The notes under the pieces were generated by a model. It had not been told where the DNA came from and did not search any database. It worked only from the letters and a program-made list of their open reading frames with translations. From a virus, in IMG/VR virus record IMGVR_UViG_3300043499_000086, positions 1 to 52,791 of that record: 52,791 bases of DNA, one strand, 5' to 3'. Positions 307 to 52,010 of this stretch are shown one piece after another (the stretch's first letter is position 1; every line of letters starts with the position of its first letter). A program made the position numbers and the translations under genes.

Positions 307-737
307 CCGCCGTCCGTCGCACGCAGGGTGACAAGCCTGTCACCCTGCGTGGGGTCAAGCGGCCCGCGTTCCCCGTCACGGTGCGGCGGGTGCCCGTCGT
401 GCCCTCGCCCGTCATGGTCACGGTGCCCGTCGCCCTCCTGCGCAAGTCCGCCGCGTGGCGGCGTGGCCTGCCCAACGAGTGGCGGGACCTGCCCGCGCCC
501 ACGCTGCACATCGCCCACGCCCATGCGGGCGGGGAGTGGGAGCGCGTCACCCGCGAGGGCGACACGCTCATCGTGCACAACCAGCCGGTCTGGTTCTGGG
601 CACGGCCCAAGCAGGGTGACAGGTCTGTCACCCGTCGCCCGCTCAAGCCGCAGTCGGGCCGCGCCATCGTGCGCGACAACCTGCTGATCCTGCGTCGCCA
701 GGGTCCGTGGTTCGCACCCAAGGCACAGGCCCGGTGA
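303..737 (+). CDS. Unknown protein carrying two in-frame palindrome copies
   Basis: A 144-residue basic protein of unknown function that starts inside the stop codon of its neighbour (ATGA overlap). Two copies of the dispersed palindrome lie inside the gene. They encode QGDKPVTL near residue 10 and QGDRSVTR near residue 105. The first copy has 14-bp arms, the second only 8. No domain is recognised; the segment between the copies is rich in Val, Pro and Arg. The gene is followed by a strong hairpin (765-796), so it is probably the last gene of its unit. Confidence 0.7.
   Translation: MTAVRRTQGDKPVTLRGVKRPAFPVTVRRVPVVPSPVMVTVPVALLRKSAAWRRGLPNEWRDLPAPTLHIAHAHAGGEWERVTREGDTLIVHNQPVWFWARPKQGDRSVTRRPLKPQSGRAIVRDNLLILRRQGPWFAPKAQAR
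320..351 (+). repeat. Dispersed palindrome copy 1
   Basis: 14-bp arms (CACGCAGGGTGACA and its complement), loop AGCC. Inside the gene at 303, encoding GDKPVT. Confidence 0.9.
614..633 (+). repeat. Dispersed palindrome copy 2
   Basis: 8-bp arms, loop GGTC. Inside the gene at 303, encoding GDRSVT. Confidence 0.9.
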
Positions 738-764
738 CCCCTGCCCGCCGTGTGCACCGTCGCC

Positions 765-796
765 CGCCCCATCCCGCCTGTCGGTGGGATGGGGCG
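765..796 (+). terminator. GC-rich hairpin, probable terminator
   Basis: Perfect 11-bp stem (CGCCCCATCCC / GGGATGGGGCG) with a 10-base loop, placed after the stop at 737 and before the promoter at 876. There is no T tract, so termination is inferred from position and stem strength. Confidence 0.55.
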
Positions 797-875
797 CGTG
801 GCGGGACCGGTGCCCGCTCGTGGTCCCGCCGCGCCCTGTGGCGTCATGCGTGGGCCACCCGTGCGCAAGGCTAAG

Positions 876-904
876 TTGTGCACACGGTGTGGTTCTGGCA
901 TACT
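876..904 (+). promoter_or_regulatory. Early promoter P1 (shared family)
   Basis: TTGTGC (876-881), 17 bases, CATACT (899-904). The -35 box and the first ten spacer bases (ACACGGTGTG) are identical to the promoters at 3,046 and 8,168. The spacer contains the palindrome CACAC-G-GTGTG, which suggests a regulator site. The dispersed palindrome at 910-939 would lie on or just after the transcription start. Confidence 0.7.
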
Positions 905-909: not shown

Positions 910-939
910 GTGTTGGGTGACAACCATGTCACCCAACAC
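910..939 (+). repeat. Dispersed palindrome copy 3
   Basis: 13-bp arms with GTGTT/AACAC extension, loop ACCA. Follows promoter P1; 24 bases before the ATG at 963. Confidence 0.9.
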
Positions 940-1118: not shown

Positions 1119-1612
1119 CCGCGGCCCGCAAGCGCGGGGTCCCCAACCCCGCGCTTGCTGCTGGCCTGCGGGAGTTGCGCCAGGGGTCAAGGGCGCAGCC
1201 TCACCGTGACCGCACCCGCTACACCCGCAAGGGCAAGGCAGGGCGGTGGGCCGGGTGTCAAACCTGTCACCCGGCCCCGTGTCGTTCGACCCTGGCCCGG
1301 CCATCTACCTCGACCGGTCGGCCCCGGCCATCATCGTGCTCACGGTCCTCCTGTGGGCGTGCGTGCAGTACGGGATGCACCTCGCCCGTGCGTGGCGACG
1401 GATGCGCGACGACGACCTATGACGGCGCGGACCGGACGCGGCCCTCGCCGCCGCGACGGTCAATGAAAACGCACCCTGCCCACACCCAGCGGTCATTGAA
1501 GATGAGGGTGACAAGCATGTCACCCAACAAACCCACCACAGAGAGGCACCACCCAACATGGACCCCAACGAGGCCCACAAGGAACTGGCCCGGCTCGCCG
1601 CCCAGGTCATGA
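1115..1612 (+). CDS. Small basic protein whose stop codon appears lost
   Basis: The frame starts with GTG overlapping the previous TGA. Its first 47 residues look like a genuine small basic protein (helical Leu/Ala segment, then His/Arg/Lys-rich tail). After residue 47 it becomes Arg/Ser/Pro/Thr-rich and overlaps the gene at 1,255 and the next gene's start. The palindrome copy at this point has T instead of A at 1258, changing the expected TGA (1256-1258) to TGT. I infer that the ancestral product was 47 residues and that the tail to 1612 is read-through or a sequencing error. Confidence 0.5.
   Translation: MTAARKRGVPNPALAAGLRELRQGSRAQPHRDRTRYTRKGKAGRWAGCQTCHPAPCRSTLARPSTSTGRPRPSSCSRSSCGRACSTGCTSPVRGDGCATTTYDGADRTRPSPPRRSMKTHPAHTQRSLKMRVTSMSPNKPTTERHHPTWTPTRPTRNWPGSPPRS
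1248..1277 (+). repeat. Dispersed palindrome copy 4 (one mismatch)
   Basis: GGGCC/GGCCC extended arms, loop AACC, with T for A at 1258. The change removes the TGA of the gene at 1,115. Confidence 0.8.
1255..1422 (+). CDS. Small single-pass membrane protein
   Basis: A 55-residue protein starting with GTG inside a palindrome copy. It has one hydrophobic helix (about residues 25-39, Ile/Val/Leu/Trp-rich), followed by an Arg-rich end, consistent with a membrane protein with its C-terminus in the cytoplasm. Without the A-to-T change at 1258 its start would overlap the preceding stop as GTGA, the arrangement used throughout this genome. Function unknown. Confidence 0.5.
   Translation: MSNLSPGPVSFDPGPAIYLDRSAPAIIVLTVLLWACVQYGMHLARAWRRMRDDDL
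1506..1525 (+). repeat. Dispersed palindrome copy 5
   Basis: 8-bp arms, loop AGCA. Followed by CCCACCACAGAGAGG and the ATG at 1558. Confidence 0.9.
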
Positions 1613-2100
1613 GCAATGACAGTCCACTCGACCCGCAGGAGCAGATGGAGTTCGCTGCTCACTTCCAGGCGCTTGACGACTGGATCAAGAGCGGTGGCTT
1701 CCCGCCCCACGCCTGGACCACCCGCAAGACCTACGTCGTCGCGGTCTCCGCGGACCCGGAACTGGCGGACCACCTGAGCAACTACGGCCAGGGTGACAAG
1801 CCTGTCACCGGGGGCATGGACATCGCCTACTGCCTCCGCCTCGCGGAGCGCATCGCCAGTGACCAGGGCTCGGGCATCGTGACCGTCCAGTACGCCGAGT
1901 TGTATAACGCGGTCGAGTTCCTCGACCGCCTCAAGGGCTACGAGTGGACCGTCGAACTGCACCCGGCCTACGACCAGATCGTGGCCGAGTTGGCGGTGCG
2001 TGACCACGCCGCTGCGCTCGACCACCCGCAGCACCGCAAGCCGGAGCGCCCCGACCTGGCGGGCAACTGGTTCGACCACGTCGAGCAGGGCGGTGCGTGA
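1558..2100 (+). CDS. Unknown 180-residue protein with palindrome-encoded insert
   Basis: Starts 33 bases after a palindrome copy and CACCACAGAGAGG. The sequence is acidic and helical. A Val/Ala segment near residue 60 is followed by GQGDKPVTGG (about residues 78-87), encoded by the palindrome at 1791-1810. The insert reads as a linker between two segments. No known domain is recognised. The stop overlaps the next ATG by one base (TGATG). Confidence 0.75.
   Translation: MDPNEAHKELARLAAQVMSNDSPLDPQEQMEFAAHFQALDDWIKSGGFPPHAWTTRKTYVVAVSADPELADHLSNYGQGDKPVTGGMDIAYCLRLAERIASDQGSGIVTVQYAELYNAVEFLDRLKGYEWTVELHPAYDQIVAELAVRDHAAALDHPQHRKPERPDLAGNWFDHVEQGGA
1791..1810 (+). repeat. Dispersed palindrome copy 6
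   Basis: 7-bp paired arms, loop AGCC. Encodes GDKPVT inside the gene at 1,558. Confidence 0.9.
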
Positions 2101-2314: not shown

Positions 2315-2334
2315 GGGTGACAAACATGTCACCC
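2315..2334 (+). repeat. Dispersed palindrome copy 7
   Basis: 8-bp arms, loop AACA. 28 bases before the ATG at 2362. Confidence 0.9.
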
Positions 2335-2721: not shown

Positions 2722-2969
2722 CCCCGCTCGAACCCCTCGACCCCGGCGTGTCGTGGCAGATCAACCGGGACCGGGAGGTGTCCCGCCGTCACGTCCGTCG
2801 CCTGCTCGCCAGACACCGGCCGCAGGACGCGGTCATTGAACGCAGCCTCATCCAGGATGCGCCCCCGCAAGATGCAGACCCACCCCCTGAGGCAAGCAAG
2901 AAGCCCAGGGGGTGGGCCTGGGTGACAAGCATGTCACCCAGGATCAGGACATGGGTCCGACCGAAGTAA
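2718..2969 (+). CDS. Small basic protein
   Basis: An 83-residue protein starting at GTG in a GTGA overlap. The middle is Arg/His-rich (residues 15-40) and may bind nucleic acid, though this is only inference. The palindrome at 2917-2942 lies near its 3' end and here encodes WVTSMSP, a different frame from the usual GDxxVT. It is the last gene before promoter P2. Confidence 0.6.
   Translation: MTPLEPLDPGVSWQINRDREVSRRHVRRLLARHRPQDAVIERSLIQDAPPQDADPPPEASKKPRGWAWVTSMSPRIRTWVRPK
2917..2942 (+). repeat. Dispersed palindrome copy 8
   Basis: 11-bp arms with CCT/AGG extension, loop AGCA. Near the 3' end of the gene at 2,718. Confidence 0.9.
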
Positions 2970-3045: not shown

Positions 3046-3074
3046 TTGTGCACACGGTGTGGTTGTGGTAGTAT
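3046..3074 (+). promoter_or_regulatory. Early promoter P2 (shared family)
   Basis: TTGTGC (3046-3051), 17 bases, TAGTAT (3069-3074). The -35 box and ACACGGTGTGGTT are shared with P1. A palindrome copy lies about 40 bases after the predicted transcription start, just before the gene at 3,161. Confidence 0.75.
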
Positions 3075-3117: not shown

Positions 3118-3141
3118 GAGGGTGACAACCATGTCACCCTC
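3118..3141 (+). repeat. Dispersed palindrome copy 9
   Basis: 10-bp arms, loop ACCA. Between promoter P2 and the ATG at 3161. Confidence 0.9.
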
Positions 3142-3886: not shown

Positions 3887-3924
3887 CGAAAGGCGGGGTG
3901 ACAACCATGTCACCCCGCCTTTCG
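3887..3924 (+). repeat. Dispersed palindrome copy 10 (longest arms)
   Basis: 17-bp perfect arms, extension CGAAAGGC/GCCTTTCG, loop ACCA. Ten bases after a stop, so it can also fold as a terminator-like hairpin. Confidence 0.95.
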
Positions 3925-4176: not shown

Positions 4177-4418
4177 CCCGCTGGATGGCGGTGCCCTTCA
4201 TCGCCGGGCACTTCGACCAGGCCCCCGACGCCATCCTCGAAGGCGACCACAAGACCGAGGCCGGGCGCGTGAACTACATCAAGAGCCACGGCAAGCCGGG
4301 CGTGGAGTATGCGGTCGCGCTGCTCTGGCCCACCGGGCAAGGCTGGGTTCCAGCCCCCACCGTCACAGTCCCATCTCCCACCACCACCCAGGGTGACAAA
4401 CCTGTCACCCGGAAATGA
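4173..4418 (+). CDS. Small unknown protein ending in a palindrome-encoded tail
   Basis: An 81-residue protein starting in an ATGA overlap. The last residues, QGDKPVTRK, are encoded by the palindrome at 4391-4410. It follows a Pro/Thr/Val-rich stretch, as if the repeat had extended the C-terminus. No domain is recognised. Confidence 0.65.
   Translation: MTRWMAVPFIAGHFDQAPDAILEGDHKTEAGRVNYIKSHGKPGVEYAVALLWPTGQGWVPAPTVTVPSPTTTQGDKPVTRK
4391..4410 (+). repeat. Dispersed palindrome copy 11
   Basis: 8-bp arms, loop AACC. Encodes the C-terminal GDKPVT of the gene at 4,173 and precedes the ATG at 4428. Confidence 0.9.
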
Positions 4419-5015: not shown

Positions 5016-5314
5016 CCGACGACCAGGGTGACAAGCCTGTCACCCATCCGATGTGGACCGTGGGCGCGCTGCTCTCGAACATGGCCGCCCTCCAGGCCGA
5101 GGACGAGGTCGAGACTGACCTCGTCTCCGTGGTCGTGGACGCGCTGCCCATGTGTGACATCCACAAGTACGACCTCGGGCAGCCGGACGTGCCCGCCACC
5201 TACGACGGCAAGACCAAGCGCGGCCCGTGGGCGTACATGTGCGGCGAGTGCTTCGACGCCAAGGGTGTCGGCCTCGGGACCGGCCTCGGCCAACGGCTGG
5301 AGGTCCGATCATGA
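5012..5314 (+). CDS. Small zinc-binding-like protein
   Basis: A 100-residue protein starting in an ATGA overlap. The N-terminus MTDDQGDKPVTH is encoded across the palindrome at 5026-5045. C-D-I-H (about residues 50-53) and CGEC (about 77-80) form a likely zinc site. Function unknown. Confidence 0.65.
   Translation: MTDDQGDKPVTHPMWTVGALLSNMAALQAEDEVETDLVSVVVDALPMCDIHKYDLGQPDVPATYDGKTKRGPWAYMCGECFDAKGVGLGTGLGQRLEVRS
5026..5045 (+). repeat. Dispersed palindrome copy 12
   Basis: 8-bp arms, loop AGCC. Encodes GDKPVT near the N-terminus of the gene at 5,012. Confidence 0.9.
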
Positions 5315-5538
5315 GGATCACGCTGCCGCTGGAGATGCTCCAGGTCATGATCGAGGGCGCGGAGCAGGTGCAGGGTGCGGCCAACGGCTTCGGTGAGTTG
5401 CTCACCTGCACCATCCGCGTGGCACCAGAGCAGGAGGGCGACCCCGCCCTCCTGCTCTCGTATGCGCGCGACCGTCGTGACTGGACCATCGAGTTCCCGC
5501 TGAACGAGAACGTGGGTGACAAGAATGTCACCCCGTAA
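5311..5538 (+). CDS. Small unknown protein
   Basis: A 75-residue protein in an ATGA overlap. Its C-terminus VGDKNVTP is encoded by the palindrome at 5514-5533. The rest is a mixed helix/strand sequence without motifs. Confidence 0.65.
   Translation: MRITLPLEMLQVMIEGAEQVQGAANGFGELLTCTIRVAPEQEGDPALLLSYARDRRDWTIEFPLNENVGDKNVTP
5514..5533 (+). repeat. Dispersed palindrome copy 13
   Basis: 8-bp arms, loop AGAA. Encodes the C-terminal GDKNVT of the gene at 5,311. Confidence 0.9.
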
Positions 5539-5943: not shown

Positions 5944-6278
5944 GCGCGGTCCGCAGGCTGCGGCCGGTGGTCGCAGCCGAGACGGTGGCCGAGCAACTCC
6001 CGGCCCCCTACCTGGAGTGCCGGGACATGGGCCACCAGTGGGTCCATCGGACGGCGCATTGGGACGGGGCGCTGGCCTGCTACGTCGAGACGGTGGAGTG
6101 CCTGCGCTGCACCGCGGAGCGGGACCGGCACATGGGTCGTGACGGGTACCTCTCGTCCGCGACCCGCAACTCGTACCGCTACCCGGAGGGCTACCTCATC
6201 AGCACGGAGGAGGCGAACCTCATCAACAAGGAAGGGCGGGCCGCGGTCCGTCGTGCCCGGATCAGCAGTTGGCGGTGA
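5940..6278 (+). CDS. Unknown protein with CxxC pair; stop supplied by palindrome
   Basis: A 112-residue protein. A Cys at residue 26, a His-rich segment and C-x2-C near residue 55 suggest metal binding. The C-terminus is basic. Its TGA (6276-6278) is part of the palindrome GGTGACA at 6274-6291, one of several genes whose stop lies in the repeat. Role unknown. Confidence 0.65.
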   Translation: MSAVRRLRPVVAAETVAEQLPAPYLECRDMGHQWVHRTAHWDGALACYVETVECLRCTAERDRHMGRDGYLSSATRNSYRYPEGYLISTEEANLINKEGRAAVRRARISSWR

Positions 6279-6291
6279 CAACCTTGTCACC
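6274..6291 (+). repeat. Dispersed palindrome copy 14
   Basis: 7-bp arms, loop ACCT. Contains the TGA stop of the gene at 5,940. Confidence 0.9.
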
Positions 6292-7767: not shown

Positions 7768-8145
7768 ATGACGGAGAAACCATCCAATGGCTCGTCGTCA
7801 TCCTCGTCGTCGCCGCCCTCGGGTGGCAGACCGGACGACTCCTCATTGAAGCCACCGTCCGATTCTTCTGGCGGTTCGGGTACCGGGGTCGTCATCGCCA
7901 TCCGCAGGTGGCCCTTCCTCCTGGCTTGGGCAGCGACGGGCGGCCTTGGCTTCGCGGTTGGCGCATGGGTCAGTTCACTCGACCGCCCTGGCTGGGTGAA
8001 GGTGGTCGCCATCGGCTTCGCAGCGGTCAGCATCGGCACGGCCAGCGCCCGCTTCCGGGCCTGGCTGTTCCGCCGAGAGGTGCGCCGGGTGGTTCGACGG
8101 GCGGCGCGAAAGGCCCGCGAGATGGGTGACAAGGATGTCACCTAG
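7768..8145 (+). CDS. Small membrane protein with Ser-rich N-terminus
   Basis: A 125-residue protein. Residues 1-40 are Ser/Pro/Gly-rich. Two hydrophobic segments follow (about 48-68 and 76-94), then an Arg-rich C-terminus ending MGDKDVT, encoded by the palindrome at 8124-8143. The 3' half has clear high-GC third positions; the 5' third does not, and the start is weakly supported. An acidic reverse frame overlaps the 5' end and might be the real gene there. Confidence 0.55.
   Translation: MTEKPSNGSSSSSSSPPSGGRPDDSSLKPPSDSSGGSGTGVVIAIRRWPFLLAWAATGGLGFAVGAWVSSLDRPGWVKVVAIGFAAVSIGTASARFRAWLFRREVRRVVRRAARKAREMGDKDVT
8124..8143 (+). repeat. Dispersed palindrome copy 15
   Basis: 7-bp paired arms, loop AGGA. 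Encodes the C-terminal GDKDVT of the gene at 7,768. Confidence 0.85.
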
Positions 8146-8167: not shown

Positions 8168-8196
8168 TTGTGCACACGGTGTGCCTATGGTAAGAT
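8168..8196 (+). promoter_or_regulatory. Early promoter P3 (shared family)
   Basis: TTGTGC (8168-8173), 17 bases, TAAGAT (8191-8196). It shares TTGTGCACACGGTGTG with P1 and P2. A palindrome with 10-bp arms (8239-8262) and CCCACCACAGAGAGGAA follow before the gene at 8,288. Confidence 0.75.
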
Positions 8197-8238: not shown

Positions 8239-8262
8239 CGGGGTGACAAACGTGTCACCCCG
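8239..8262 (+). repeat. Dispersed palindrome copy 16
   Basis: 10-bp arms with CG/CG extension, loop AACG. Follows promoter P3. Confidence 0.9.
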
Positions 8263-8920: not shown

Positions 8921-10128
8921 GTAGGACAGCAACGGTGGGTGACAGGCTTGTCACCCCCGGTGACCTCGTCACCAGGAGCCGTCGAGTCGGAGTGATCCTG
9001 GAGGTCAGCGACGGCAAGTACACCGTCCTCTCGGCCAAGGGCACCGAGGTCTGGAAGCCCGAGGACTGCCGCAGGGGCGGCAACCCGGCGACCGGCGTGA
9101 CCTACGCGGTGCGGGCGCTGGAGGTGGTCAAGGATCGGGAGTCCAAGGCGGTCACCGACCTGGAGGTCCTGCGCCGCATGGACTCCCAGCAGCGGGCGCT
9201 CATCACCCGAGTCGCCCACAGCCAGGGCACCGCCCACGGGCTCGACTCCCGACTGGACGACATGCTCGCCCGGAACGGACTGGAGCGCAGGCCGGTGCCG
9301 ATGCACCGCTGGGTGGCGATACACGCCCGGCACATCTACGACGGCACCACCCCAGCAACCTCGGTGGGTGCGGTCATGGGTACCGACGTGTACCAGACGT
9401 TCGGCCGGGTGCCGCAGCGGATCGTGGCGGACCGGATCAGGATGATCCAGATGCCAACCGAGACGCTGCCCTTCCGCAGCGTGGACGAGTGCACCTGTGA
9501 GTCGGAGTGCCCGCCCATCGAGGCGGTGCAGGCTCAGTGGGAGAACACGGCTCGCCTCGGTGCGGGGTGGCGGACCGAGATTCTCGGTCTCCGCATGGCG
9601 TTCACCACGGAGTCCCGGTCTGGTAACGGCTGCCGTCACCAGACCGCGCTCAGCGCCGTCGCCACCTGGGAGGAGGCGTTCCCGGACGCGACCCCGTTCC
9701 CGGTCCCGCTGACCGACCACTCCCTGGAGGCGTTCCTGCCGGGGGACACGGTGCGGATCACCCGCTCCGGCCACGAGATGCAGGTGGGCTGGGAGTTCAC
9801 GGTGGAGAGCGTCCGTACTGACGGTCGCCTGGTCGGCCGCTCGGACGAACACACCCGGTTCGCCCACTACGTCATCCGTCAAGCGAACTGCGTGCGGGTC
9901 AACATCCGGGTCGGGGACCGAGTGCAGGTGGTCCACAGTCACAGCGGGCTAGCGGTGGGTGAGACCTTCACCGTCACCGCCGAGACCCAGAGCGGGCGCA
10001 CGCTGATGTACGAGTGCACCAACGTCACCGGTATGCCCGGCTGGCTCGTCCAGCGGCAGTACGTCGAGAGGGTGACAAACCTGTCACCCACACCACCGGC
10101 TCCCGTCGCGGACGACGAGCCCTTCTAG
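8917..10128 (+). CDS. 403-residue unknown protein framed by palindromes
   Basis: Starts at GTG in a GTGA overlap. A palindrome encodes TVGDRLVTP at residues 6-14, and a second copy near the end encodes ERVTNLSP. Short beta-rich segments near both ends (VGDRLVTPGDLV..., PGDTVRITRSG, VGDRVQVVHSHSG) look like KOW/SH3-type modules. The middle contains CTCESEC near residue 192. It may be a nucleic-acid or complex-assembly scaffold, but no function can be assigned. Confidence 0.7.
   Translation: MSRTATVGDRLVTPGDLVTRSRRVGVILEVSDGKYTVLSAKGTEVWKPEDCRRGGNPATGVTYAVRALEVVKDRESKAVTDLEVLRRMDSQQRALITRVAHSQGTAHGLDSRLDDMLARNGLERRPVPMHRWVAIHARHIYDGTTPATSVGAVMGTDVYQTFGRVPQRIVADRIRMIQMPTETLPFRSVDECTCESECPPIEAVQAQWENTARLGAGWRTEILGLRMAFTTESRSGNGCRHQTALSAVATWEEAFPDATPFPVPLTDHSLEAFLPGDTVRITRSGHEMQVGWEFTVESVRTDGRLVGRSDEHTRFAHYVIRQANCVRVNIRVGDRVQVVHSHSGLAVGETFTVTAETQSGRTLMYECTNVTGMPGWLVQRQYVERVTNLSPTPPAPVADDEPF
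8937..8956 (+). repeat. Dispersed palindrome copy 17
   Basis: 8-bp arms, loop GGCT. Encodes GDRLVT in the gene at 8,917. Confidence 0.9.
10070..10089 (+). repeat. Dispersed palindrome copy 18
   Basis: 8-bp arms, loop AACC. Near the 3' end of the gene at 8,917, encoding RVTNLSP. Confidence 0.9.
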
Positions 10129-10872: not shown

Positions 10873-10906
10873 CCGGTGTGGGTGACAAACCTGTCACCCA
10901 CACCGG
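10873..10906 (+). repeat. Dispersed palindrome copy 19
   Basis: 15-bp arms, extension CCGGTGT/ACACCGG, loop AACC. Between a terminator and the TACAAT box. Confidence 0.95.
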
Positions 10907-12272: not shown

Positions 12273-12284
12273 CAAACATGTCAC
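12269..12284 (+). repeat. Dispersed palindrome copy 20 (degenerate)
   Basis: 6-bp arms, loop AACA. Holds the stop of the gene at 10,953 and the ATG of the gene at 12,278. Confidence 0.7.
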
Positions 12285-12631
12285 CCTCGCTGTTCTTCGA
12301 CAAGCAGGGCCAGCCCCTGCCCGACGTACTGACATGGGCCAAGTTGCTGGAGGACCCCGAGTACCAGGTGGTCGCGCAGGACGAGGTGCCCGGCCCGACC
12401 GGGCAGATGTGGGTCAGCACAATCTGGCTTGGCCTCCCGCAGAACCTCTCCGGCCTACCGGGGTACGGCCCACCGATCATCTTCGAGACGGCGATCTTCG
12501 AGTCGCCTCGCAGACTCATCTCCATCTGGGCTCGGTACGCCACCGAGCAGGCCGCGCAGGACGGCCACAAGTTGGCGGTCCAGGCGATAGCAGACGGAAT
12601 CTTCATACCACCAGGAGAGGAAGCACCATGA
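12278..12631 (+). CDS. Unknown protein starting inside a palindrome
   Basis: A 117-residue protein. The ATG (12278-12280) is the centre of the degenerate palindrome at 12269-12284, with GAGGAG ten bases upstream; GTG at 12269 is the alternative. The sequence contains several Trp and a Gly/Pro-rich centre. No domain known. It overlaps the next gene by four bases. Confidence 0.65.
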   Translation: MSPSLFFDKQGQPLPDVLTWAKLLEDPEYQVVAQDEVPGPTGQMWVSTIWLGLPQNLSGLPGYGPPIIFETAIFESPRRLISIWARYATEQAAQDGHKLAVQAIADGIFIPPGEEAP

Positions 12632-14299: not shown

Positions 14300-14319
14300 G
14301 GGTGACAAGGTTGTCACCC
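14300..14319 (+). repeat. Dispersed palindrome copy 21
   Basis: 8-bp arms, loop AGGT. Directly after ssb, before the GTG at 14354. Confidence 0.9.
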
Positions 14320-35169: not shown

Positions 35170-35194
35170 GGGTGACATGTTTGTCACCCCTCAG
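35165..35194. repeat. Dispersed palindrome copy 33 between convergent genes
   Basis: Core GGGTGACA 35170-35177, with a one-base bulge and CTGAG/CTCAG pairing outside. Stops of the forward gene at 34,996 and the reverse gene at 35,191 flank it. Confidence 0.85.
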
Positions 35195-37849: not shown

Positions 37850-37869
37850 GGGTGACAGGTTTGTCACCC
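37850..37869 (-). repeat. Dispersed palindrome copy 34
   Basis: 8-bp arms, loop AACC on the reverse strand. Between the giant virion gene and the IPT/PKD gene. Confidence 0.9.
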
Positions 37870-38633: not shown

Positions 38634-41600
38634 AGGGCCTTCTCCTTCGTTGAAGATTGCGGTCACCTGGTCGGACCCAATGGCCTCGTCCTGGATGAAG
38701 ACGAACAGATCGACGGGTGGCACCAGTTCGCTGGTCACATCGTCCGCGCCAATGGCGTCGTCCGCTACCACCGCGCTCCGGTCGTAGATGACGCTCACCT
38801 CGTCGGAGCCGAGCGCCGTGTCGGCCAGGGACGTGGCGCGGCCCCACGTCGTCACGACGTGATCCAGCGCCACCCCGATGTCCGGGATGACGGAGGTCAG
38901 GCCGCGCGCCGTCGTGACGGCGTCGGAGCCGACTGCGGTGTCGGCTCCGGACCGGCCCCGAACCGCCAGGGTGACAAGGTTGTCACCCCCGACAGCGATG
39001 TCTCCGGCCCCGGCCTGTCCGGCTCCGGAACGCTGCAACGAGACCTCGTCCGCCCCGACTGCGGTGTCAGCGGCGGAGCGGACCACCGTCTTCTGGGCCG
39101 TCAGAAGGTCACTACCGACCGCGGTGTCAGCGATGAGGATGGTGCGCTGCCCGGCCAGCGTCTCGCTGCCGTAGGCCGAGTCGGCAATGACCCGCTCCCT
39201 GGTCCAGAGCAGGGTCACCGAGTCGGAGCCCGCTGCGGTGTCGGCCAGCGCCTTCTGGCTGCCGCTCGGGGCGACCGCCAGGTCCGAGCCGACCGCCACG
39301 TCGGCGGGGGTCCGCAGCCGTGACCACAGGACCGTCACGTCGTCGCTGCCCACGGCCAGGTCGTCGGCGGTGGCGAAGACGTTGACGACCCACAGGGCGG
39401 TCACCGCGTCGGAACCAACTGCGGCATCTGCCGCAGTTCGATCACGGGTCGCGGTCACCGTTACGTCGTCGGTGCCGACCGCGTTGTCGTCCACGGTCTC
39501 GACGGCCGAGCCGATCCGCGAGGAGGTGACCGTGTCGGAGCCCACCGCATGGTCGGCCTCGGTGCGGACCCGAGCGGCCAGGACGTTCGCGGAGTCGGTC
39601 CCACCGGCCACGTCGGCAATGACCCGGTCAACGGTCCGGACGATGGTGACCGAGTCGGTGCCTACTGCGCTGTCGGCGGCAAGTCGGCTAGCCGCCGACA
39701 GCGTGCTGACGCTATCGGACCCGACCGCTGTGTCGGCAGGGTTCGCGGTGAGTGCCTGCCCGGCCTCGAAGACGAAGGTGGCGGAGTCGGAGCCGGTGGC
39801 GAGGTCGGTGACGGTCTTGCCGGTCGCCTTGGTCACCGTCACCGCGTCGGTGCCATCGGCGCTGTCGGCAACGACGCGCACCCGTTCGGAGGTGGTCGTC
39901 GCGGCGTCGCTGCTGGTGGCAACGTCGGCGGGGTAGGTCGTCAGCGCAGCGGGCGGCGTGCCCATCCCGAGCGTGTAGTGGGCCTGGACCTCGCCCGCAG
40001 GCAGGACGCGCCCGTAGAGCGCGATGTTGGAGAACCGGCCTGCGAACGGCTGCTCCCCCAGGGTGAAACGCAGGAAAGGCGTGTTGATCGCTGGGATGCC
40101 GGTCCCAATACCGCTGTCCAGCGTGCCGCTGCCGACCAGGACGCCGTTCTGGTAGACCTTCCACGCGCCATTGCCCACCGTGACCACGAAGTGGTGGATG
40201 GAGTCCGGCATGACCTGGGGGTTCAGGACGGCGTTGTAGGCCGCGAGGCCGTTCCCGTTCCGGTCCGTGATGTTGCCGCCGAGGGAAGGCAGGTACGCCT
40301 CGAAGCCGGAGTTCAACTGCGCGGTGAACGAGACGAAGAAGTTGCACAGGTTGCGGTGCGGGTAGGTCGTGTGGGTCGGGGAGACCCATTGCTCGTAGGA
40401 GTAGGCCCCGGAAATCTCCGGTATCTGGGTCGTGTGCGTCTCCGCGCCCTCGTTCTGCGGGACAGCGGGCAGCGCCGTTGACGGCCCCAGCCCGTAACCG
40501 ATGGGCGGACCCTGGGTGTGGACTGTGCCGTTCGCTGGGCCTGCTGGCTGCCAGGTCGCCGGGTACTCGGGGATGATGCTGTTCGCGGCGACAGCCTGAC
40601 CGGAGGGTTCATCGAACTTCCAGTAGTGGAGCGCCCCGGAGGCGACCACCGCCTCGTCGTAGTTGGCAACGCGAAGCGTTCCCGCGACGTTGATGTTGTC
40701 GATGTTGGTGCCCTGGGCGGTGCCCGACGCGGCCCAGAACTGGCCGAACACCCCGTGGGTGAAGTGCTCGCCGTCCAGGTGCGGGGCGAGGTCCAACGTG
40801 TTCGTGACGACGACCGCGTTGTCGGAGATGCGTCGCACCGTGCAGGTGACGACGGTGCCGACCGCCTGAATGGTGACCCGGTACCAGGTGTCGAGCGGGA
40901 GGTTGGCCTGTCGAGGGCCTATCGAAGTCATGCTGTTGTTGGTGATCCGCATGAAGCCGCTGCTGTCACCGGAACTCTCAAGACGGACCGTGAAGCCGTC
41001 CATGCCGTTGACCGGATCGGCACCGTTGGGGGTACACCAGAACATGGCCTCGTAGATGTCCCGGCCACCGCCCTGGAGCATGTCGAAGGTGTAGGTGAAG
41101 TCGCCCGTGATGTCCCAGCGCGAGTACGGCTTGCCTCGCCACCCTCGGTACGCGCCGTTGGTCCACAGCGACGGGGCCGGGTTGCCGACCGCCGCGTCGA
41201 GCGTCACCGGGTACTGACCGGGGAACGGGTCGGGAGCAACGGTGACTACGTCGATGTCCCGAGGCAGCCCGTTGGCGAAGGTCTCCGGGAACACCAGCGG
41301 CGGCGGACCGGCGAACACGAACGTCGCCTCGTCGGTGCCCTCCGCTGTGTCGGCCGGGTTCTCGAACCGAGGAATCGTGACCGAGTAGTCCACCGTCACG
41401 TCGGCGTGGTCAATGGAGCCGACGCGGCTCTGGGTGCTGCTCGCCCCGTTGAAGGTCGTGCGGACCTTGAAGTTCGCTGCCTGCAACTGCGCCAGGGTGA
41501 CCGGGAATATCGCCGTGTCGTTGCTGGGCACAGTCGTATCGGCCCCGGTGCCCGCTGTCCCAAGCGGGGTGGTCCCGCTGTACGGCTGGAACCGGATCGA

Positions 41601-42471: not shown

Positions 42472-42491
42472 GGGTGACAAACATGTCACCC
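42472..42491 (-). repeat. Dispersed palindrome copy 36
   Basis: 8-bp arms, loop TGTT on the reverse strand, opposite to most late copies. 29 bases before the ATG at 42443. Confidence 0.9.
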
Positions 42492-43510: not shown

Positions 43511-43816
43511 CTACTCCTCGTCCTTGTTGGCGGACTTCACCTTGGCGACGACCTCGGCCGGAGCATTGAAGCCACCCCGGTCGTAGTTCACGGTCACCAC
43601 CCGCTGGTCCAGACCTGCTTCCTCGGCGGCTGCCAGGAGCAGTACGGCGTTGTCCTCGTTGATCCCGGCGTAGAAGGTCTCGCCCTCCTCGGCCGGAGCC
43701 GCCTCGCTGTCCTCGGAGGTGACAGGCTTGTCACCCTCCTTGACCTCAGCGGTCTCGGCGTCCACGACCTCGTCATCGCTCTCGGGCAGGTAGCCCTCGT
43801 CGTTGTCGGTTGCCAT
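43511..43816 (-). CDS. Acidic small protein after the capsid
   Basis: A 101-residue protein; GAGGAGGTTGAACG precedes ATG. Acidic N-terminus with EGDKPVTSED (about 27-36), encoded by the palindrome at 43718-43735. The second half has a helix and a VVTVNYDRGGFNAPAEVV segment. It might be a head-accessory protein. Confidence 0.6.
   Translation of the reverse strand: MATDNDEGYLPESDDEVVDAETAEVKEGDKPVTSEDSEAAPAEEGETFYAGINEDNAVLLLAAAEEAGLDQRVVTVNYDRGGFNAPAEVVAKVKSANKDEE
43718..43735 (-). repeat. Dispersed palindrome copy 37
   Basis: 7-bp arms, loop AGCC on the reverse strand. Encodes GDKPVT in the gene at 43,511. Confidence 0.85.
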
Positions 43817-45755: not shown

Positions 45756-45775
45756 GGGTGACAAGTCTGTCACCC
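45756..45775 (-). repeat. Dispersed palindrome copy 38
   Basis: 8-bp arms, loop GACT on the reverse strand. At the upstream end of the capsid leader. Confidence 0.9.
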
Positions 45776-45938: not shown

Positions 45939-48502
45939 CAGACAACTTCCTTCCGTAGCCGGGCCATCCGGGTCTTCGGGTCGAGCCCGGCCTCTGCACG
46001 CAATGCCATCATCCTGCGTCGCGCGTTCCGCGTCTCGATCTCGTCCACCGCAGCCATGACCGCTGCGCTGATGTCGAGGCCGGAGACGACGTGCGGAGCC
46101 CGGTCCACGATGCCTGCCGCGACCAGGCTGATCTGCTCGCCACCGGAAGCGGCCAGTTGGGTGCGCGGGACCAGGAAGCCGGGGACGTTGACGCAGAGGG
46201 CGGCGACCATCTCCAGCCCTCCGGCAACCTCGCGCCAGTCACCGGAGAGCGGGGCTGCGGCAAGGGCATGACGGTCCTCATCCGAGAGGTGATCCCGTAC
46301 ACGACCGCTGATCCAGATGCCATGCGCGTCCTCACCCGCGACGACATCAGCAGCGACCGTCGCGGTGTTGTCGTAGTGCGCCGCCGTCGCGGCAGCCGAC
46401 AAGCGTGGACCGGCATGTCCTGTGCCGAGGGTGACGTGGCCTACCGCGATGTCTCCCTCGTCTGTGTGGTCCGCTCCGGTACGGTAGTGGGCGTAGTTGC
46501 TCCCGCTGAACGGTGGGGTGACGCAGGTGCCCTTGATGCCGATGTGGCAGGTGCCCCACGCGGCCAGGTGCCCGAAGATGCGGTCGTCCTCGGTGATGGT
46601 CACCGGAGTCGGCTCGGTCAGGTGGGGGTTGTCGAAGTAGCGAGCCGAGATGGTCGGGCGGGCGGAGGCGACGAGGGTGACCGCTGGGCTGAGGTCCACA
46701 GTCGCGCCGGAGTGGCGTCCCCGCCGCCCCCGGTTCCCGCTGCCGCCCTCGCTCGGCGCGCGGCCGGGCCAGTACCCCGTCGCGTCGTAGTGACGGTTGG
46801 CGCAGTAACCGTTGAGGTACTGGGCCTTGACGTACTTCGCCAGTTGGCTGCGGCACCGGTTGAAGTCGCCCGGCGTTCCCCAGCGAATCTTCGCCGCGCC
46901 CTTGCCACGGGTCCAGTAACGCCGCAGGCGCTCGGTGTCCACCGGGTGGGTCAACCAGCCCGGTCCGTCCTCGGTCTTGACCGCGAACTCGTCCATGTCG
47001 TCGTTGGTCGCCGCGATGTTCTCGGGCGGGTCCTCACCGAGTTCGTCGTAGGCCCCGCGCAGCGCCGCCTTGGCCTGGCTGATCTTCTCCGGGGGAGCGT
47101 CGGTACTGCCGAGCCGTCCGGCTGCGGCGTGCACACCGGCCCGGCTCAACTTCCCGTCCGGGGTGAGGATCGGCAACTTGTTGTTGGACTTCTTCAACTT
47201 GTCCGGGCCGTCGTCCACCAGATGCACGATGGTCGCCTTGAAATACTGCTCGTCGGTGTAGTTGCTGGCCGACCCGTCCCAGGTGCCCTCGTCTATCGCC
47301 ATCTCACAGTTGCACGAGGCGGTCAGGGACTTGTCCTCCTCGCCCTCGGCGGGCCACTCGCCCAGGCCGACGAACGCCTCAGCGAACGCAGGGATCGCGC
47401 ACAGGGTCGCGCCGCAGACCCGGCCGTCCGGGAACACGGTGACCGCGTCCTGCGGGTCGTCGCCCTCGCTCCAGTCCCCGCCCGAGCGGTTCTGGAGTTC
47501 CATGCTCGCGTCGTCCACGTCCACGCTGACGCCACGGATGCCGCCGTCCGCGATGAGGCCGATGGCTTCGTCCGCCTCGTCCTGGCCGGGGAAGAAGACG
47601 CCCGACGCCTTGATGAGGTTGCCGTCACGCCAGACCTCGTCAATGCGGCCGACGACCACCCCGCCGTCGTGGCCGGGCGCGGTCACCTTCTGCCAGGACA
47701 GGGGCAGCGGCAGGTCCCGCCAGCGGAGCGCGTCCTTGCCGAACTTCCGGCCGTCGCCGCTCATCACGTCCTCAGGGGCGAGGACGCCGTGCCAGGGAAT
47801 GGCGGCGTCCTCGTCGGTGACAAGGTTGTCACCCTCGTCCGACAGGTCCTCGTCCGGCAGGACCTCGGGCTCGGTCGCAGTCGCGGTCATGGTGACTCCT
47901 TCATTCGCAGACGCAGCCAGGGTCGCAGCCGAGATGGCGATGACACAACGGCAGTTGATGATCTGTGCGGGCGGTGCGCTCGGGTCGCCGGGCAGTTCCA
48001 TCCGGTACCCGTCAACGACGAACTTGTCCTGGATGGGCACGGTGATCCCGTCCACCTCACGGTGCGAGGTGCGGACCCGGTCGTCGTGCATGGTGATCCA
48101 GGTCTTCTGCATCGACGGCTTCGTCGGGTCGCGGTGCGTCTCCAGGCCCGCCGCCTCGGCCCCGGCGTTGATCGCCGCGTTGGACAGCCAGCGGGCGATC
48201 ATCTCGACGCGGGACTCGAAGTTCTCGTCGGTCAGGCCACTGGTCTTCTCCAGGGCGTCACGAGCCTTGGTGCGGAACTTCTGCACGTCGTCACGGAAGT
48301 CGTTGCTGGTCATCTTCCCGGACTCGCGCCGGTAGACACGGCGCATCAGGCGCTCGGCCGCATTGACCAGGGTGCCCGCCCACGCCGTCACGTTCCGGCG
48401 CTTGCGGTGCAGCGCCCACCGGACCGAACCCTCCAGCGCGTTGGCCCCACGGTCCTGGACCGGGCGACGCGCAGCAGCGAACGCGGCCAGGTCGATGGTC
48501 AT
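45938..48502 (-). CDS. MuF-like minor capsid protein fused to capsid maturation protease
   Basis: An 854-residue fusion starting in an ATGA overlap with the portal. Residues 1-190 are the SPP1 gp7/MuF-type region (ITMHDDRVRTSHREVDG, INCRCVI). A linker at about 224-229 (GDNLVT) is encoded by the palindrome at 47816-47833. Residues 237-385 are a prohead serine protease (PLPLSW, GHDGGVVVGRID with His278, GVSVDVDD with Ser326). Residues 405-500 form a small Cys-containing domain. Residues 635-800 (GHLAAWGTCHIG..GTCVTPPFSGSNYAHYRTG) are a further conserved actinophage module. It would mature the capsid. Confidence 0.8.
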   Translation of the reverse strand: MTIDLAAFAAARRPVQDRGANALEGSVRWALHRKRRNVTAWAGTLVNAAERLMRRVYRRESGKMTSNDFRDDVQKFRTKARDALEKTSGLTDENFESRVEMIARWLSNAAINAGAEAAGLETHRDPTKPSMQKTWITMHDDRVRTSHREVDGITVPIQDKFVVDGYRMELPGDPSAPPAQIINCRCVIAISAATLAASANEGVTMTATATEPEVLPDEDLSDEGDNLVTDEDAAIPWHGVLAPEDVMSGDGRKFGKDALRWRDLPLPLSWQKVTAPGHDGGVVVGRIDEVWRDGNLIKASGVFFPGQDEADEAIGLIADGGIRGVSVDVDDASMELQNRSGGDWSEGDDPQDAVTVFPDGRVCGATLCAIPAFAEAFVGLGEWPAEGEEDKSLTASCNCEMAIDEGTWDGSASNYTDEQYFKATIVHLVDDGPDKLKKSNNKLPILTPDGKLSRAGVHAAAGRLGSTDAPPEKISQAKAALRGAYDELGEDPPENIAATNDDMDEFAVKTEDGPGWLTHPVDTERLRRYWTRGKGAAKIRWGTPGDFNRCRSQLAKYVKAQYLNGYCANRHYDATGYWPGRAPSEGGSGNRGRRGRHSGATVDLSPAVTLVASARPTISARYFDNPHLTEPTPVTITEDDRIFGHLAAWGTCHIGIKGTCVTPPFSGSNYAHYRTGADHTDEGDIAVGHVTLGTGHAGPRLSAAATAAHYDNTATVAADVVAGEDAHGIWISGRVRDHLSDEDRHALAAAPLSGDWREVAGGLEMVAALCVNVPGFLVPRTQLAASGGEQISLVAAGIVDRAPHVVSGLDISAAVMAAVDEIETRNARRRMMALRAEAGLDPKTRMARLRKEVV
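47816..47833 (-). repeat. Dispersed palindrome copy 39
   Basis: 7-bp arms, loop ACCT on the reverse strand. In the MuF-protease linker, encoding GDNLVT. Confidence 0.85.
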
Positions 48503-50262: not shown

Positions 50263-50310
50263 CGAACGGCACTCCTCTTGACCGGTGGCTGCTCGTCAGT
50301 GTGACAGCCA

Positions 50311-50658
50311 CTACTCCTCAGGGCCACCGTCCTCGTCATGGAACACGACCCACGATGTCGCGTAGGACAGCGCCATCCAGCCGTTGAAGGCCCACCAGGT
50401 CCAGTGCAGGTTGGACAGTACCGCCCAGACCATCAGGACCAGGGTGATCCACGGACCGAAGCACCACGGACAGTGGGCCAACTTGCTCCACGGCCCGTCG
50501 TGGGTCACCTTGTCCCACCACATCCGCAGCCGGATCGAGGGCGGGTAGTCCTCCGCGACGACGACGCGGGTGAGGCGTCCGGCCGAGAGGACGAGGGTGA
50601 TCGCGGCCAGGGTCAGGTAGAAGTAGGTGTTCAGGTCGGGCGGGGCCAGGAGGGTCAC
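50311..50658 (-). CDS. DUF1360 membrane protein
   Basis: A 115-residue protein with GTG start in a GTGA overlap with the terminase. Membrane segments near 10-28, 66-82 and 88-105. CPWCFGPW (about 61-68) is the signature of DUF1360. Its role next to terminase and portal is unknown. Confidence 0.75.
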   Translation of the reverse strand: MTLLAPPDLNTYFYLTLAAITLVLSAGRLTRVVVAEDYPPSIRLRMWWDKVTHDGPWSKLAHCPWCFGPWITLVLMVWAVLSNLHWTWWAFNGWMALSYATSWVVFHDEDGGPEE

Positions 50659-52010
50659 AGCCGCCAGCCCAGGCTGTCCGGAGTGGCTATCTCGGACGGT
50701 CCATGTGCGCCGGACAGGTGGGTCAGCGCGTGCACCAGCGCATCGACGCGGTCCGGGGATGAGTCGCCTACGACCCACGTCGTCATCTGGTCCTCCAACT
50801 CGTTGAGCACTCCGACGTGATGCACCCTGCCCTGCTCATAGAGGGCCACGATGGGGTCTGCGCGCAGCGCCTTCCCGCGCCGAGAGGTGACCTCGGTGAT
50901 CGGCAGGAACGGGCGCACGGACTCCAGGGTCGTGCGCACCATGTCGCCACCGTAGTTCTTCTCGATGACTACCTTGTCGGCCTCGTACACGTCGAACGCG
51001 CCGACCGTCCGGGTCGCCCAGCCCTGCGGGGTGTAACGGCCGGACCGGTCCTCCATGACGTAGTAGTCGCCGTCCTCGCCCTTGCCCGCGACGATGATGC
51101 CGGTCTCGTCGGAGCGCCGGGTGGCGGTACCTGCGGGGTCAACGGCGACGACGACCCGAGCCAGGGGTGACAAGTCTGTCACCCGGTTCAGGTCGATCAT
51201 CTCGGCGCTCCACATCGCGCCCTCGACATCTTCGAGGAGTTCGCCCAGCAACTCCTGGCGTCCCTTGCGAGTCCCCTCGTACCGGGCCAGGACGGTGCGC
51301 CGCCAGGACGGGGCCAGGTTCTCCAGGTTGGCGTAGGTGGTGGTGACGACGCTGACGGTGGTCGGGTCGCGGACCAGGTCGCGCATCCACTTGCTCGGCT
51401 TCGGCGTGGTGGTGGCACAGATGCGCGGGTGTTGACCGAGCCGCAGTCCGAGGACCAGGTTGTCCCACACTGGCTCGATGAGGTCGGTGTGAGCGGGCTC
51501 ATCGACCCAGGCGTCGTAGTGCTCGGGGCCTCGGAGGCGGTCCGGCTCCTCGCCGGAGTACACGGAACCTATGCAGCCGTTGGGCCAGGTGACCTTACGC
51601 TTGGAGGGCTCCCATTGGGGCAGACCTCCGGGCGGGGCGGTCGCCAGCAGGCCGGACTCGCCTTCGAGCATGATGTCGCGGGCGTCCGGTCCGGTGGGAG
51701 CGACCAGGGCTATCCGTGGGCTGACCTTGGTGCGGCGGTGGGTCCACTCGCTGCCGGTCCGCGTCTTGCCGGACCCTCGGCCGCCGCGCAGCAGCCAGGT
51801 GAGCCAGTCACCGAGCGGCGGGTGCTGGTCGTCGCGGGCGTGCGGCCAGGCCCACTGGTCGTGGGGCCGACCGTCGCAGCCGTGCCGGGTGCAGAAGAAG
51901 GGCCGCCAGGCACCCTCCTGCACCTTGCGCAGCGCCTCAGCCGCCTTCTCCTGGGCGTTCGGGTTCCACCGTTTGTAGGCGTCCGGGTCGAACGCCTCGG
52001 CCGCGCTCAT
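50655..52010 (-). CDS. Terminase large subunit
   Basis: A 451-residue packaging motor. The N-terminus has CTRHGC (about 40-45) plus histidines that may bind zinc. The Walker A loop is RGGRGSGKT (75-83), Walker B is WVDEPA (168-173), and the RNase H-like nuclease shows VVVAVDPAG, VVIEKNYGG and DRVDALVHAL with acidic metal ligands. It cuts and pumps phage DNA. No small terminase is recognised in the window; it may be upstream. A palindrome copy lies between ATPase and nuclease codons, read as RVTDLSP. Confidence 0.92.
   Translation of the reverse strand: MSAAEAFDPDAYKRWNPNAQEKAAEALRKVQEGAWRPFFCTRHGCDGRPHDQWAWPHARDDQHPPLGDWLTWLLRGGRGSGKTRTGSEWTHRRTKVSPRIALVAPTGPDARDIMLEGESGLLATAPPGGLPQWEPSKRKVTWPNGCIGSVYSGEEPDRLRGPEHYDAWVDEPAHTDLIEPVWDNLVLGLRLGQHPRICATTTPKPSKWMRDLVRDPTTVSVVTTTYANLENLAPSWRRTVLARYEGTRKGRQELLGELLEDVEGAMWSAEMIDLNRVTDLSPLARVVVAVDPAGTATRRSDETGIIVAGKGEDGDYYVMEDRSGRYTPQGWATRTVGAFDVYEADKVVIEKNYGGDMVRTTLESVRPFLPITEVTSRRGKALRADPIVALYEQGRVHHVGVLNELEDQMTTWVVGDSSPDRVDALVHALTHLSGAHGPSEIATPDSLGWRL
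51165..51184 (-). repeat. Dispersed palindrome copy 40
   Basis: 8-bp arms, loop GACT on the reverse strand. Inside the terminase gene, encoding RVTDLSP. Confidence 0.9.

Follow-up and report, generated by a model that had tools for sequence, protein, structure and literature searches.

The 52,791-nt viral DNA analysed here (the window) carries 40 copies of one palindrome, and dispersed palindromes of this kind occur in 26 of the 37 records compared, the window included, in 18 different words, with sister words found at some shared places. Thirty-seven copies in the window match GGTGACANNNNTGTCACC exactly and three have one mismatch, the first beginning at position 327 and the last ending at 51183. 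The core is GGTGACA-N4-TGTCACC, and a longer form, GGGTGACA-N4-TGTCACCC, is exact in 29 copies; the arms are near-invariant and the N4 centre is variable. Allowing up to three mismatches gave 43 matches, whereas 100 dinucleotide shuffles averaged 3.95 and never exceeded 9; the three matches with three mismatches are left out of the count of 40. Seventy-four of the 80 half-sites fall within exact full sites and 5.9 were expected in total, so that lone half-sites are not enriched. By our own gene models, 22 copies lie in gaps, four overlap gene ends and 14 are inside genes. These figures bear out an earlier note on this DNA, which had described a symmetric site in about 40 copies beyond chance, in gaps and within genes, at roughly one per 1.3 kb (the figure we also obtain) and with 28 copies in the forward arm and 12 in the late arm (28 before position 24,020 and 12 after it in our scan). 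The copies may best be read as sites at which a dimeric protein of the phage binds, serving as operators or road-blocks, a reading to which, taken whole, we give about one chance in two. That a phage-encoded dimer binds the sites is, taken separately, likely; that their role lies in transcription is an evenly balanced proposition.

No strand is assigned to the copies. In seven forward-arm gaps a copy precedes a start codon: copy 3 (916..933; start of 963-1118, 29 nt downstream), copy 5 (1507..1524; 1558-2100, 33 nt), copy 7 (2316..2333; 2362-2721, 28 nt), copy 9 (3121..3138; 3161-3877, 22 nt), copy 16 (8242..8259; 8288-8920, 28 nt), copy 21 (14301..14318, 3′ of the SSB gene; 14354-14680, 35 nt) and copy 26 (20654..20671; the recombinase gene 20694-21299, 22 nt). 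Copies 8 (2921..2938), 12 (5027..5044), 17 (8938..8955), 19 (10881..10898), 22 (14694..14711) and 24 (18035..18052) also lie in gaps, as does copy 10 (3897..3914), which follows a stop codon by 19 nt and looks terminator-like by eye. The copies that overlap gene ends are 14 (6274..6291, across the stop of 5940-6278), 15 (8125..8142, across the end of 7713-8129), 20 (12268..12285, one mismatch, covering the stop of 11028-12272 and the start of 12278-12631) and 28 (23597..23614, across the stop of 23296-23601, with the next start 20 nt on). Copies 1 (327..344) and 2 (615..632) are inside gene 303-737, copy 4 (1254..1271, one mismatch) inside 1246-1422, copy 6 (1792..1809) inside 1558-2100, where it codes for GDKPVT, and copy 18 (10071..10088) inside 8992-10128. 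Copy 11 (4392..4409) is at the 3′ end of 4173-4418, 18 nt before the start of 4428-5015; copy 13 (5515..5532) is at the 3′ end of 5311-5538, and copy 23 (16871..16888, one mismatch) at the start of 16868-17155. Copy 25 (19918..19935) lies in a gene with an HTH-like segment (19226..20074, plus strand) and copy 27 (22224..22241) in the exonuclease gene 21462-22550.

Gaps of the late arm hold copy 29 (24957..24974, 21 nt before the start of 24771-24935), copy 30 (26867..26884), copy 31 (28609..28626, a gap by our models in a region where gene calls are uncertain), copy 32 (31553..31570, 21 nt before the start of 29810-31531), copies 33 (35171..35188), 34 (37851..37868) and 36 (42473..42490), and copy 38 (45757..45774, 5 nt after the stop of 45780-45938). 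Inside genes are copies 35 (38970..38987, in 37875-41855), 37 (43718..43735, in 43511-43816), 39 (47816..47833, in a variable linker of the head gene 45938-48502) and 40 (51166..51183, in the terminase gene 50655-52010).

The case for transcription is built on where the copies fall. An SD-like motif with ATG or GTG lies within 45 nt downstream of 15 of the 40 sites; random positions averaged 1.8 over 500 runs and never gave more than 9. The SD pattern was picked by us after reading the sequence. Three repeated elements on the plus strand, which we take as putative promoters, are each followed by a site: TTGTGC-17-CATACT (876..904) by copy 3 after 11 nt, TTGTGC-17-TAGTAT (3046..3074) by copy 9 after 46 nt, and TTGTGC-17-TAAGAT (8168..8196) by copy 16 after 45 nt. 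A search of positions 1-15,000 of the window gave no consensus sigma-70 promoter. The copies thin out steeply from the early end, numbering 11, 6, 5, 3, 4, 2, 1, 3, 2, 2 and 1 per 5 kb in the window and 14, 8, 7, 4, 3, 3, 1 and onwards in phage AWGoat; such a fall was seen in all seven phages tallied (the window, AWGoat, SilentRX, Tank, Rizwana, Ranunculus and Beagle). The early end of the phage may be partly missing from the 52.8-kb record. Asymmetry of the centre tracks the direction of transcription by 25 to 6 in the window, by an A-first test chosen after the data were seen, with p 0.03 in a general permutation; among the 21 records whose words have a centre, orientation is significant in only five. 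Relative to transcription, the changes in Ranunculus fall predominantly in one arm (19 to 2). The 14 intragenic copies count against the dimer-site reading, since an operator would not be required there.

Comparison with related phages points to a protein made by the phage. Besides that of the window, 17 words are found in related phages; their bearers include ten isolates, of which four share a host strain. The earlier note had held that absence from all related phages would speak against its proposal; the exact word is indeed missing from all 28 other related phage records, but nine of 16 capsid-related loci have it, at matching places. At homologous sites in the window's clade, variation is confined to the centre, and the arms do not change. 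In place of the window word, L121 and G001 have TTACAC-N-GTGTAA, and L126 and L127 have GTGACAC-GTGTCAC; when 16 of the words were counted across the 37 records, each turned up in its own group alone. Four Arthrobacter phages grown on one A. globiformis strain have three words between them (one in SilentRX and BruhMoment, one in Ranunculus and one in Beagle), while phages with different hosts can have one word in common. The arrays consist of GGGTCGG-N4-CCGACCC in SilentRX and of GCCGGAC and GCCGGT sites in Ranunculus and Beagle. As one host strain supports three words, the protein that reads them is most likely encoded by the phage.

Some gene gaps, and one head-gene linker, that hold a copy in the window hold a different palindrome in sister phages lacking the window word. 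In each of G001, G002, G003 and G009, three of six mappable sites are within 100 nt of the record's own palindrome (p 0.0055, 0.0115, 0.009 and 0.0005, respectively); the test counts mappable sites alone, and its null ignores any overall tendency of sites to lie in gaps. Of the 15 records tested outside the window's clade, 11 show no significant agreement. The place of copy 32 maps in nine records, five of which (G001, G003, G007, G009 and G018) have their own palindrome within 8 nt, and at the place of copy 36 both G002 and G003 have GTGACACGTGTCAC within 3 nt. At the linker of copy 39, three groups, the window's and two sister groups, each have their own palindrome, the copy in L121 being imperfect.

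The conserved inverted repeats of phiC31 and the SPBRE of SPbeta are dispersed repressor sites, in temperate phages with known repressors. According to the published accounts, the stoperators of Clusters A and CA recur many times across the genome in group-specific words, follow the direction of transcription, and are asymmetric sites for a monomeric repressor in temperate phages (PMC6550527, PMC13313380, PMC5721134, PMC9283540). The resemblance to stoperators drawn in the earlier note holds for the many sites over the genome; unlike the asymmetric 13-14-bp stoperators of Cluster A, the window site is a dyad, and whereas those phages are temperate, with an integrase or parABS, we found no match to integrase families PF00589 or PF00239 in the window, whose record may be incomplete, or in 23 other bearing records, that is, in all bearers except G002 and G003. 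Classical lysogenic silencing is therefore unsupported.

Closer parallels are the arrays of Clusters O and EG. A genome-wide palindrome array has been published for Cluster O phages with its function given as unknown; Corndog has 34 copies of TGTTCGG-N3-CCGAACA in 17-bp repeats, proposed to bind a dimer (PMC4351075). Like the window, these phages combine a dyad with invariant 7-bp arms and a variable short centre, located in gaps and genes and denser at one end, and lack an integrase; they differ in the word itself and in a 3-nt centre that only slightly prefers the direction of transcription. This comparison rests on the published description, the Corndog sequence itself being outside it. The array was described in five closely related genomes, so that replacement of one word by another is not visible there (PMC4351075). 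The lytic Cluster EG Microbacterium phages Hyperion, OneinaGillian and Squash have 18-bp inverted repeats, GATCAACCNNGGTTGATC, 14-22 bp upstream of start codons, in 8-10 copies mainly at the right genome end, which were published without a function (PMC7302621, PMC9224216). We count 12 copies in OneinaGillian by 6-bp arms; this phage is a distant relative of that in the window, with a portal protein about 40% identical. The window array has the features by which we recognise the Cluster O/EG type, namely a fixed dyad in many copies with invariant arms and a variable centre, copies in gaps and genes across the genome (by our gene models), and no integrase found in a record that may be incomplete; unlike that of Cluster EG, it comprises 40 copies in both arms and inside genes. 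The literature searched assigns no function to such arrays since the descriptions of 2015 and 2020.

No cognate protein of the window palindrome was found. The product of the HTH-like gene at 19226-20074 is only a candidate for the site-binding protein. It has no relative among the ORFs of 29 other records, and at an E value of 0.01 neither isolated phages nor plasmids gave one; one partial match, 29%, is in a viral contig, and the AlphaFold2 model is of low confidence (mean pLDDT 52.6). The winged-helix protein gp63 of AWGoat was rejected as the reader, since BLAST finds none in Tank, Rizwana or BruhMoment, all of which have the AWGoat word. A phylogenetic profile placed recombinase and exonuclease families in 14 of 14 bearers and one of 10 others (G008, in which no palindrome was seen), and SSB in the same profile with two exceptions, G008 and Cinna; this tracking may reflect kinship only. 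A protein common to G007 and G012, both with the TTTAGT word, appears HTH-like to us. It has no PHROG match below E 0.1, its two-sequence profile also matches G008, and peptide scans, which reach close relatives only, gave nothing beyond the two source records. A 91-aa protein, HTH-like by eye, is present in Ranunculus and Beagle and not in the five GGGTCGG phages.

An unlikely but serious alternative is that the sites organise the genome, with a dimer that compacts, marks, partitions or helps to package phage DNA, and with any link to transcription incidental. Copies in both arms and inside 14 genes would suit such a role, and the Cluster O authors preferred a function outside transcription initiation, considering transcriptional regulation unlikely on the ground that the majority of sites lie away from promoters (PMC4351075). 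The steep gradient from the early end, the association with starts and the promoter-like neighbours would not, however, be expected of it. Some sister words resemble what we take to be KorB operators. As for ParB/KorB as the reader, we set aside the ParB-like protein encoded upstream of the terminase, in which no HTH can be made out by eye and whose relatives occur in non-bearers as well as bearers; PF02195 matched in 10 of 27 records, the window not among them.

Rather less probable is a role in RNA, each copy forming a stem-loop in the transcript that acts as a terminator, stability element or processing site. Many copies do precede start codons, and stems run on for 4-10 bp in eight of the 40 window copies (7 bp in copy 1, 10 in copy 10, 8 in copy 19 and 9 in copy 22, among others), where flank pairing is above chance (p 0.003-0.005); over 23 records, those with at least seven exact sites, to which the density tally was also restricted, pairing is nevertheless at expectation (924 observed against 914.8). 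Read on the sense strand, GCAA or GTAA forms the centre of most copies in Tank (19 of 29) and in Rizwana (24 of 31), but the centre is 0, 1 or 2 nt long in many sister words, and such centres with AT-rich arms would make poor hairpins. Changes in the arms over 24 records left 114 pairs broken against 45 G-T pairs (79 against 45 for transitions alone, p 0.003), and in the window three against none. This count allows one mismatch and uses fixed arm boundaries, at 24.0 kb in the window, by annotation in AWGoat, and assumed at 34.8 kb for BruhMoment and SilentRX and at 36 kb for Tank, Rizwana, Ranunculus and Beagle, with strands set as well as possible. AWGoat and SilentRX are an exception, 19 of their 24 arm changes leaving a G-T pair on the sense strand, which raises the RNA reading slightly. 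A looser count of 243 changes gave 179 broken, 52 G-T and just 12 two-sided changes that preserve pairing, the split between broken and G-T being unreliable for AWGoat and BruhMoment, where the strand is mostly wrong. Rfam gave no match at gathering scores. An RNA-hairpin role is thus disfavoured for the family as a whole, and where the earlier note had left silencing, packaging, partition and RNA control side by side, a DNA site for a phage-encoded dimer, most likely tied to transcription, is favoured.

That the copies are iteron-like sites of a replication initiator, an HTH_36/lambda-O-like protein, scattered here, is improbable. The same word is clustered in other viral contigs, with two to four exact copies in or at the end of genes matching Pfam HTH_36 (L005, L010, L018, L019 and L033, of which two are just under the cut-off), whereas the window copies are scattered, not clustered inside such a gene. 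None of the 23 window proteins tested against Pfam matched HTH_36, nor did the window ORFs match a small home-made HTH_36 profile, which misses the RepA of AWGoat too. The HTH_36 RepA of Arthrobacter phages does not follow the word and was rejected as the reader: that of BruhMoment is 32% identical to AWGoat's despite the same word, whereas the proteins of Ranunculus and Beagle, whose words differ, reach 54-59%. Capture by the phage of sites for a host DNA-binding protein is very improbable given the three words on one A. globiformis strain and the word common to phages of different hosts.

Under the preferred reading, the 40 copies would all be bound by a single phage-encoded protein, dimeric and sequence-specific in its binding of DNA, which on its sites would act as an operator or road-block, damping or ordering transcription, that of the early genes above all. 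The layout would be stoperator-like, yet in phages without a detectable integrase, and protein and sites would shift specificity together. More speculatively, and we think this rather unlikely, phages without lysogeny genes may keep an address code like that of immunity groups, in which each lineage has its own word, in as many as about 40 copies at partly shared places and rewritten genome-wide with a fast-changing regulator that shuts off the early genes of the phage itself and of superinfecting kin and so sets co-infection. The series of words allows the binding protein to be found by comparison and opens tests of specificity, transcription and superinfection in laboratory strains; if the proposal is true, the palindrome code would decide which kin phages can co-infect.

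The window is a virus record of 52,791 bases with a GC content of 67.6%. In our own gene models, the early genes lie on the + strand up to about 24.0 kb and include those for SSB (13718-14299), recombinase (20694-21299), exonuclease (21462-22550) and a YspA-like SLOG-family protein (PF10686; 17560-17976), relatives of which occur in the related records G005, G007, G009 and G013. From there to the right end, the late genes run on the - strand and encode endolysin (24021-24770), tape measure (31572-34304), major tail protein (42547-43506), major capsid protein (43886-45517), portal (48499-50262) and terminase (50655-52010). Adjoining the terminase is a ParB/Srx-like protein recognised by eye (52200-52724, - strand) and widespread in the phage family; PF02195 matches its relatives and not the window protein, in which no HTH was seen by eye. 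Since long palindrome-bearing records span 56-71 kb, the window record may be incomplete at its early end.

The palindrome GGTGACA-N4-TGTCACC is present in 37 exact copies, or 40 with at most one mismatch, 28 in the early and 12 in the late arm, which bears out the earlier note's claim of about 40 copies genome-wide, split 28 and 12. Chance, which that note had discounted, would give far fewer: 43 matches are found at up to three mismatches, compared with 3.95 expected and a maximum of 9 in 100 shuffles. The arms are preceded by G in 35 and followed by C in 37 of the 40 copies, and over 16 arm letters 29 copies match perfectly. Half-sites show no enrichment on their own, because 74 of the 80 sit in exact full sites and 5.9 are expected from base composition. 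We conclude that the array is very probably functional.

A peptide search with the major capsid protein identified relatives encoded in 16 loci. The scan of related phages suggested in the earlier note had a mixed outcome: nine of these loci (L117, L040, L118, L119, L100, L124, L050, L128 and L070) carry the exact window word in corresponding positions, its centre differing from copy to copy, and the word is absent from the other seven and from all 28 further related records scanned whole. Among isolated phages, portal and capsid relatives number 848 records each, all less than 60% identical, with hosts mostly in Mycobacterium, Gordonia, Microbacterium, Arthrobacter and Streptomyces.

Capsid relatives without the window word have palindromes of their own, TTACAC-N-GTGTAA in L120-L123 and GTGACAC-GTGTCAC in L125-L127. 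A census of every exact palindrome with 6-bp arms spaced 0-14 nt apart was made in 37 whole or partial records including the window (for TPA2 and Phelemich, the first 60 kb only), at least six copies being taken as a clear dispersed palindrome where codon-block shuffles gave at most three. Such a palindrome is found in 26 of the 37 records, representing 18 words if G007 and G012, which have TTTAGT-N-ACTAAA (6-bp arms) in common, are taken as one. TPA2 (nine copies, of a word made up of G and C only), Geodirt (five) and Phinky (four) are borderline, and none was found in G008, G010, G016, Wizard, Phelemich, Cinna, Tonitrus and harman. The isolates' words are GGGTCG(G) in Tank, Rizwana, AWGoat, SilentRX and BruhMoment, GCCGGAC in Ranunculus, GCCGGT-N2 in Beagle, ATCAACC-N2 in OneinaGillian and RubyRalph, and GTCTAGC-N1 in Sunfish. 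By exact counts over the 37 records, each of 16 words is confined to its own group, in a table whose words were drawn from the records counted and in which those belonging to G005, G012 and G014 are not included. When the scan was widened to 73 partial loci related through the capsid protein (L134-L206), more such words came up in some and none in many. G008, a 58,911-base record, has the bearers' recombinase, exonuclease, SSB and helicase families and no dispersed palindrome; it is possible that this was lost.

The window's late-arm sites were mapped onto sister records via protein alignments, agreement being a site of a different word within 100 nt. This is seen at three of six mappable sites in each of G001 (p 0.0055), G002 (p 0.0115), G003 (p 0.009) and G009 (p 0.0005), values inflated by a shared preference for gaps because the null uses random positions; no significant agreement is seen in the 11 remaining records from outside the clade sharing the window's word. 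The gap before gene 29810-31531 is mappable in nine non-clade records, five of which (G001, G003, G007, G009 and G018) place their own palindrome within 8 nt; that of AWGoat lies at 80 nt, and in three records it is more than 3 kb away. In the head gene at 45938-48502, a variable linker flanked by conserved stretches carries the window word in the clade, GTGACACGTGTCAC in L125/L126 and an imperfect GGTTACACCGTGTCATC in L120/L121; in G001 and G002, the two records measured, a palindrome lies 40-47 nt from the mapped place. Unless some partner reads the sequence, it is hard to see why a site in a coding linker would be retained as its letters change.

The window word also occurs clustered in other viral contigs, of which 11 were examined. 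In L005, L010, L018, L019 and L033, two to four exact copies lie inside HTH_36-matching genes or at their ends (two of these matches fall slightly short of the cut-off), and GDTxVTP-like peptides are present where the word clusters; L007 and L036 resemble L005. The clustered copies are possibly replication iterons; for L014, L046, L047 and L051 no explanation was found.

The palindromes might be read as DNA sites or as RNA hairpins. Over 24 records at up to one mismatch, with strands taken from arm boundaries where the gene caller failed, changed arm pairs are broken in 114 cases and G-T in 45, and for transitions only the figures are 79 and 45 (p 0.003); in the window they are three and none. 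In a looser count, with strands wrong for two records, 179 changed pairs were broken and 52 were G-T, and 12 stayed paired through changes on both sides. The exception is AWGoat and SilentRX (W11, W14), where a G-T pair is kept in 19 of 24 changes; their imperfect copies are mostly C-to-T in the 3' arm on the sense strand. In Ranunculus (W13), 18 of 21 changes break pairing and 19 fall in the sense-strand 5' arm, so that the dyad may be read directionally. A word that combines AT-rich arms with a centre of 0-2 nt would make a poor hairpin. Pairing beyond the arms is in excess in the window (93 versus 72.8 expected, p 0.003), weakly so in G001 (p 0.034) and at chance pooled over 23 records (924 versus 914.8). 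The stem is extended by 4-10 bp in eight of the 40 window copies, some shortly 3' of stop codons, and a few copies may therefore double as terminators. The GGGTCGG-N4-CCGACCC centres of Tank and Rizwana (W01, W18) read GCAA or GTAA in the sense direction in most copies (19/29 and 24/31), which is GNRA-like, and in the GGGTCGG group a further, RNA-level role may exist. Overall, these sequence comparisons favour the DNA reading.

Several features link the sites to transcription. An SD-like motif with ATG or GTG follows within 45 nt at 15 of 40 sites, versus a mean of 1.8 and a maximum of 9 in 500 random-position sets, with SD patterns of our own choice. Three copies of a promoter-like early-arm element (TTGTGCACACGGTGTG plus a -10-like hexamer) at 876-904, 3046-3074 and 8168-8196 read TTGTGC, 17 nt, then CATACT, TAGTAT or TAAGAT, and are followed by a palindrome at 11, 46 and 45 nt, respectively; a position picked anywhere in 1-9,900 would have a site within 50 nt in 8.8% of cases. 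A consensus scan of positions 1-15,000 shows no sigma-70 promoter, so that these elements are putative promoters. In the window and in the six isolates tallied, copies per 5 kb become fewer with distance from the early end, the AWGoat counts taking in terminal repeats. The window centre is oriented with transcription by 25 to 6 (p 0.0009, for a feature picked after inspection), by 16 to 3 in gap copies only and at p 0.03 in a general test; of the 21 records, four more (G007, G018, Tank and Rizwana) show significant orientation and the remaining 16 do not. No integrase domain (PF00589, PF00239) was found at E 0.001 in the 24 of 26 bearers searched, and PMC9224216 reports that OneinaGillian is lytic and forms clear plaques.

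Arrays of this kind are published, and the window's belongs with them under another word. In Cluster O phages, which have no integrase, TGTTCGG-N3-CCGAACA occurs 34 times, both between and within genes; its arms do not vary and it has no function assigned, and the study describing it anticipates a dimeric protein and considers regulation of transcription initiation doubtful (PMC4351075). Cluster EG phages have 8-10 copies of GATCAACCNNGGTTGATC ahead of start codons (PMC7302621), and the stoperators of Cluster A are oriented sites that lack symmetry (PMC6550527). The words 'palindromic', 'inverted' and 'motif' are absent from the text of the Tank paper (PMC5513430). In the parts of the literature accessible to us, we found no account of word replacement between sisters at shared places, of several words among phages of one host strain or of a copy-density gradient across several phages.

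Arthrobacter globiformis B-2979 is host to SilentRX, BruhMoment, Ranunculus and Beagle, which carry three words between them, and OneinaGillian and RubyRalph have one word on two Microbacterium host species; most likely, therefore, the protein that reads the palindrome is encoded by the phage. One of the first early genes in G007, G009 and G012 codes for a protein that is HTH-like by eye, with no PHROG match below 0.1, and the window may lack an early end that would hold such a candidate reader. Ranunculus encodes a 91-residue protein, also HTH-like by eye (62394-62669, - strand; PQ362686), with a counterpart in Beagle (67%) and none in the five GGGTCGG phages; it is a lead as the putative reader of the GCCGG words. 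Judged from the genomes compared, the evidence argues for a phage-encoded dimer that would switch specificity and be tied to early transcription.
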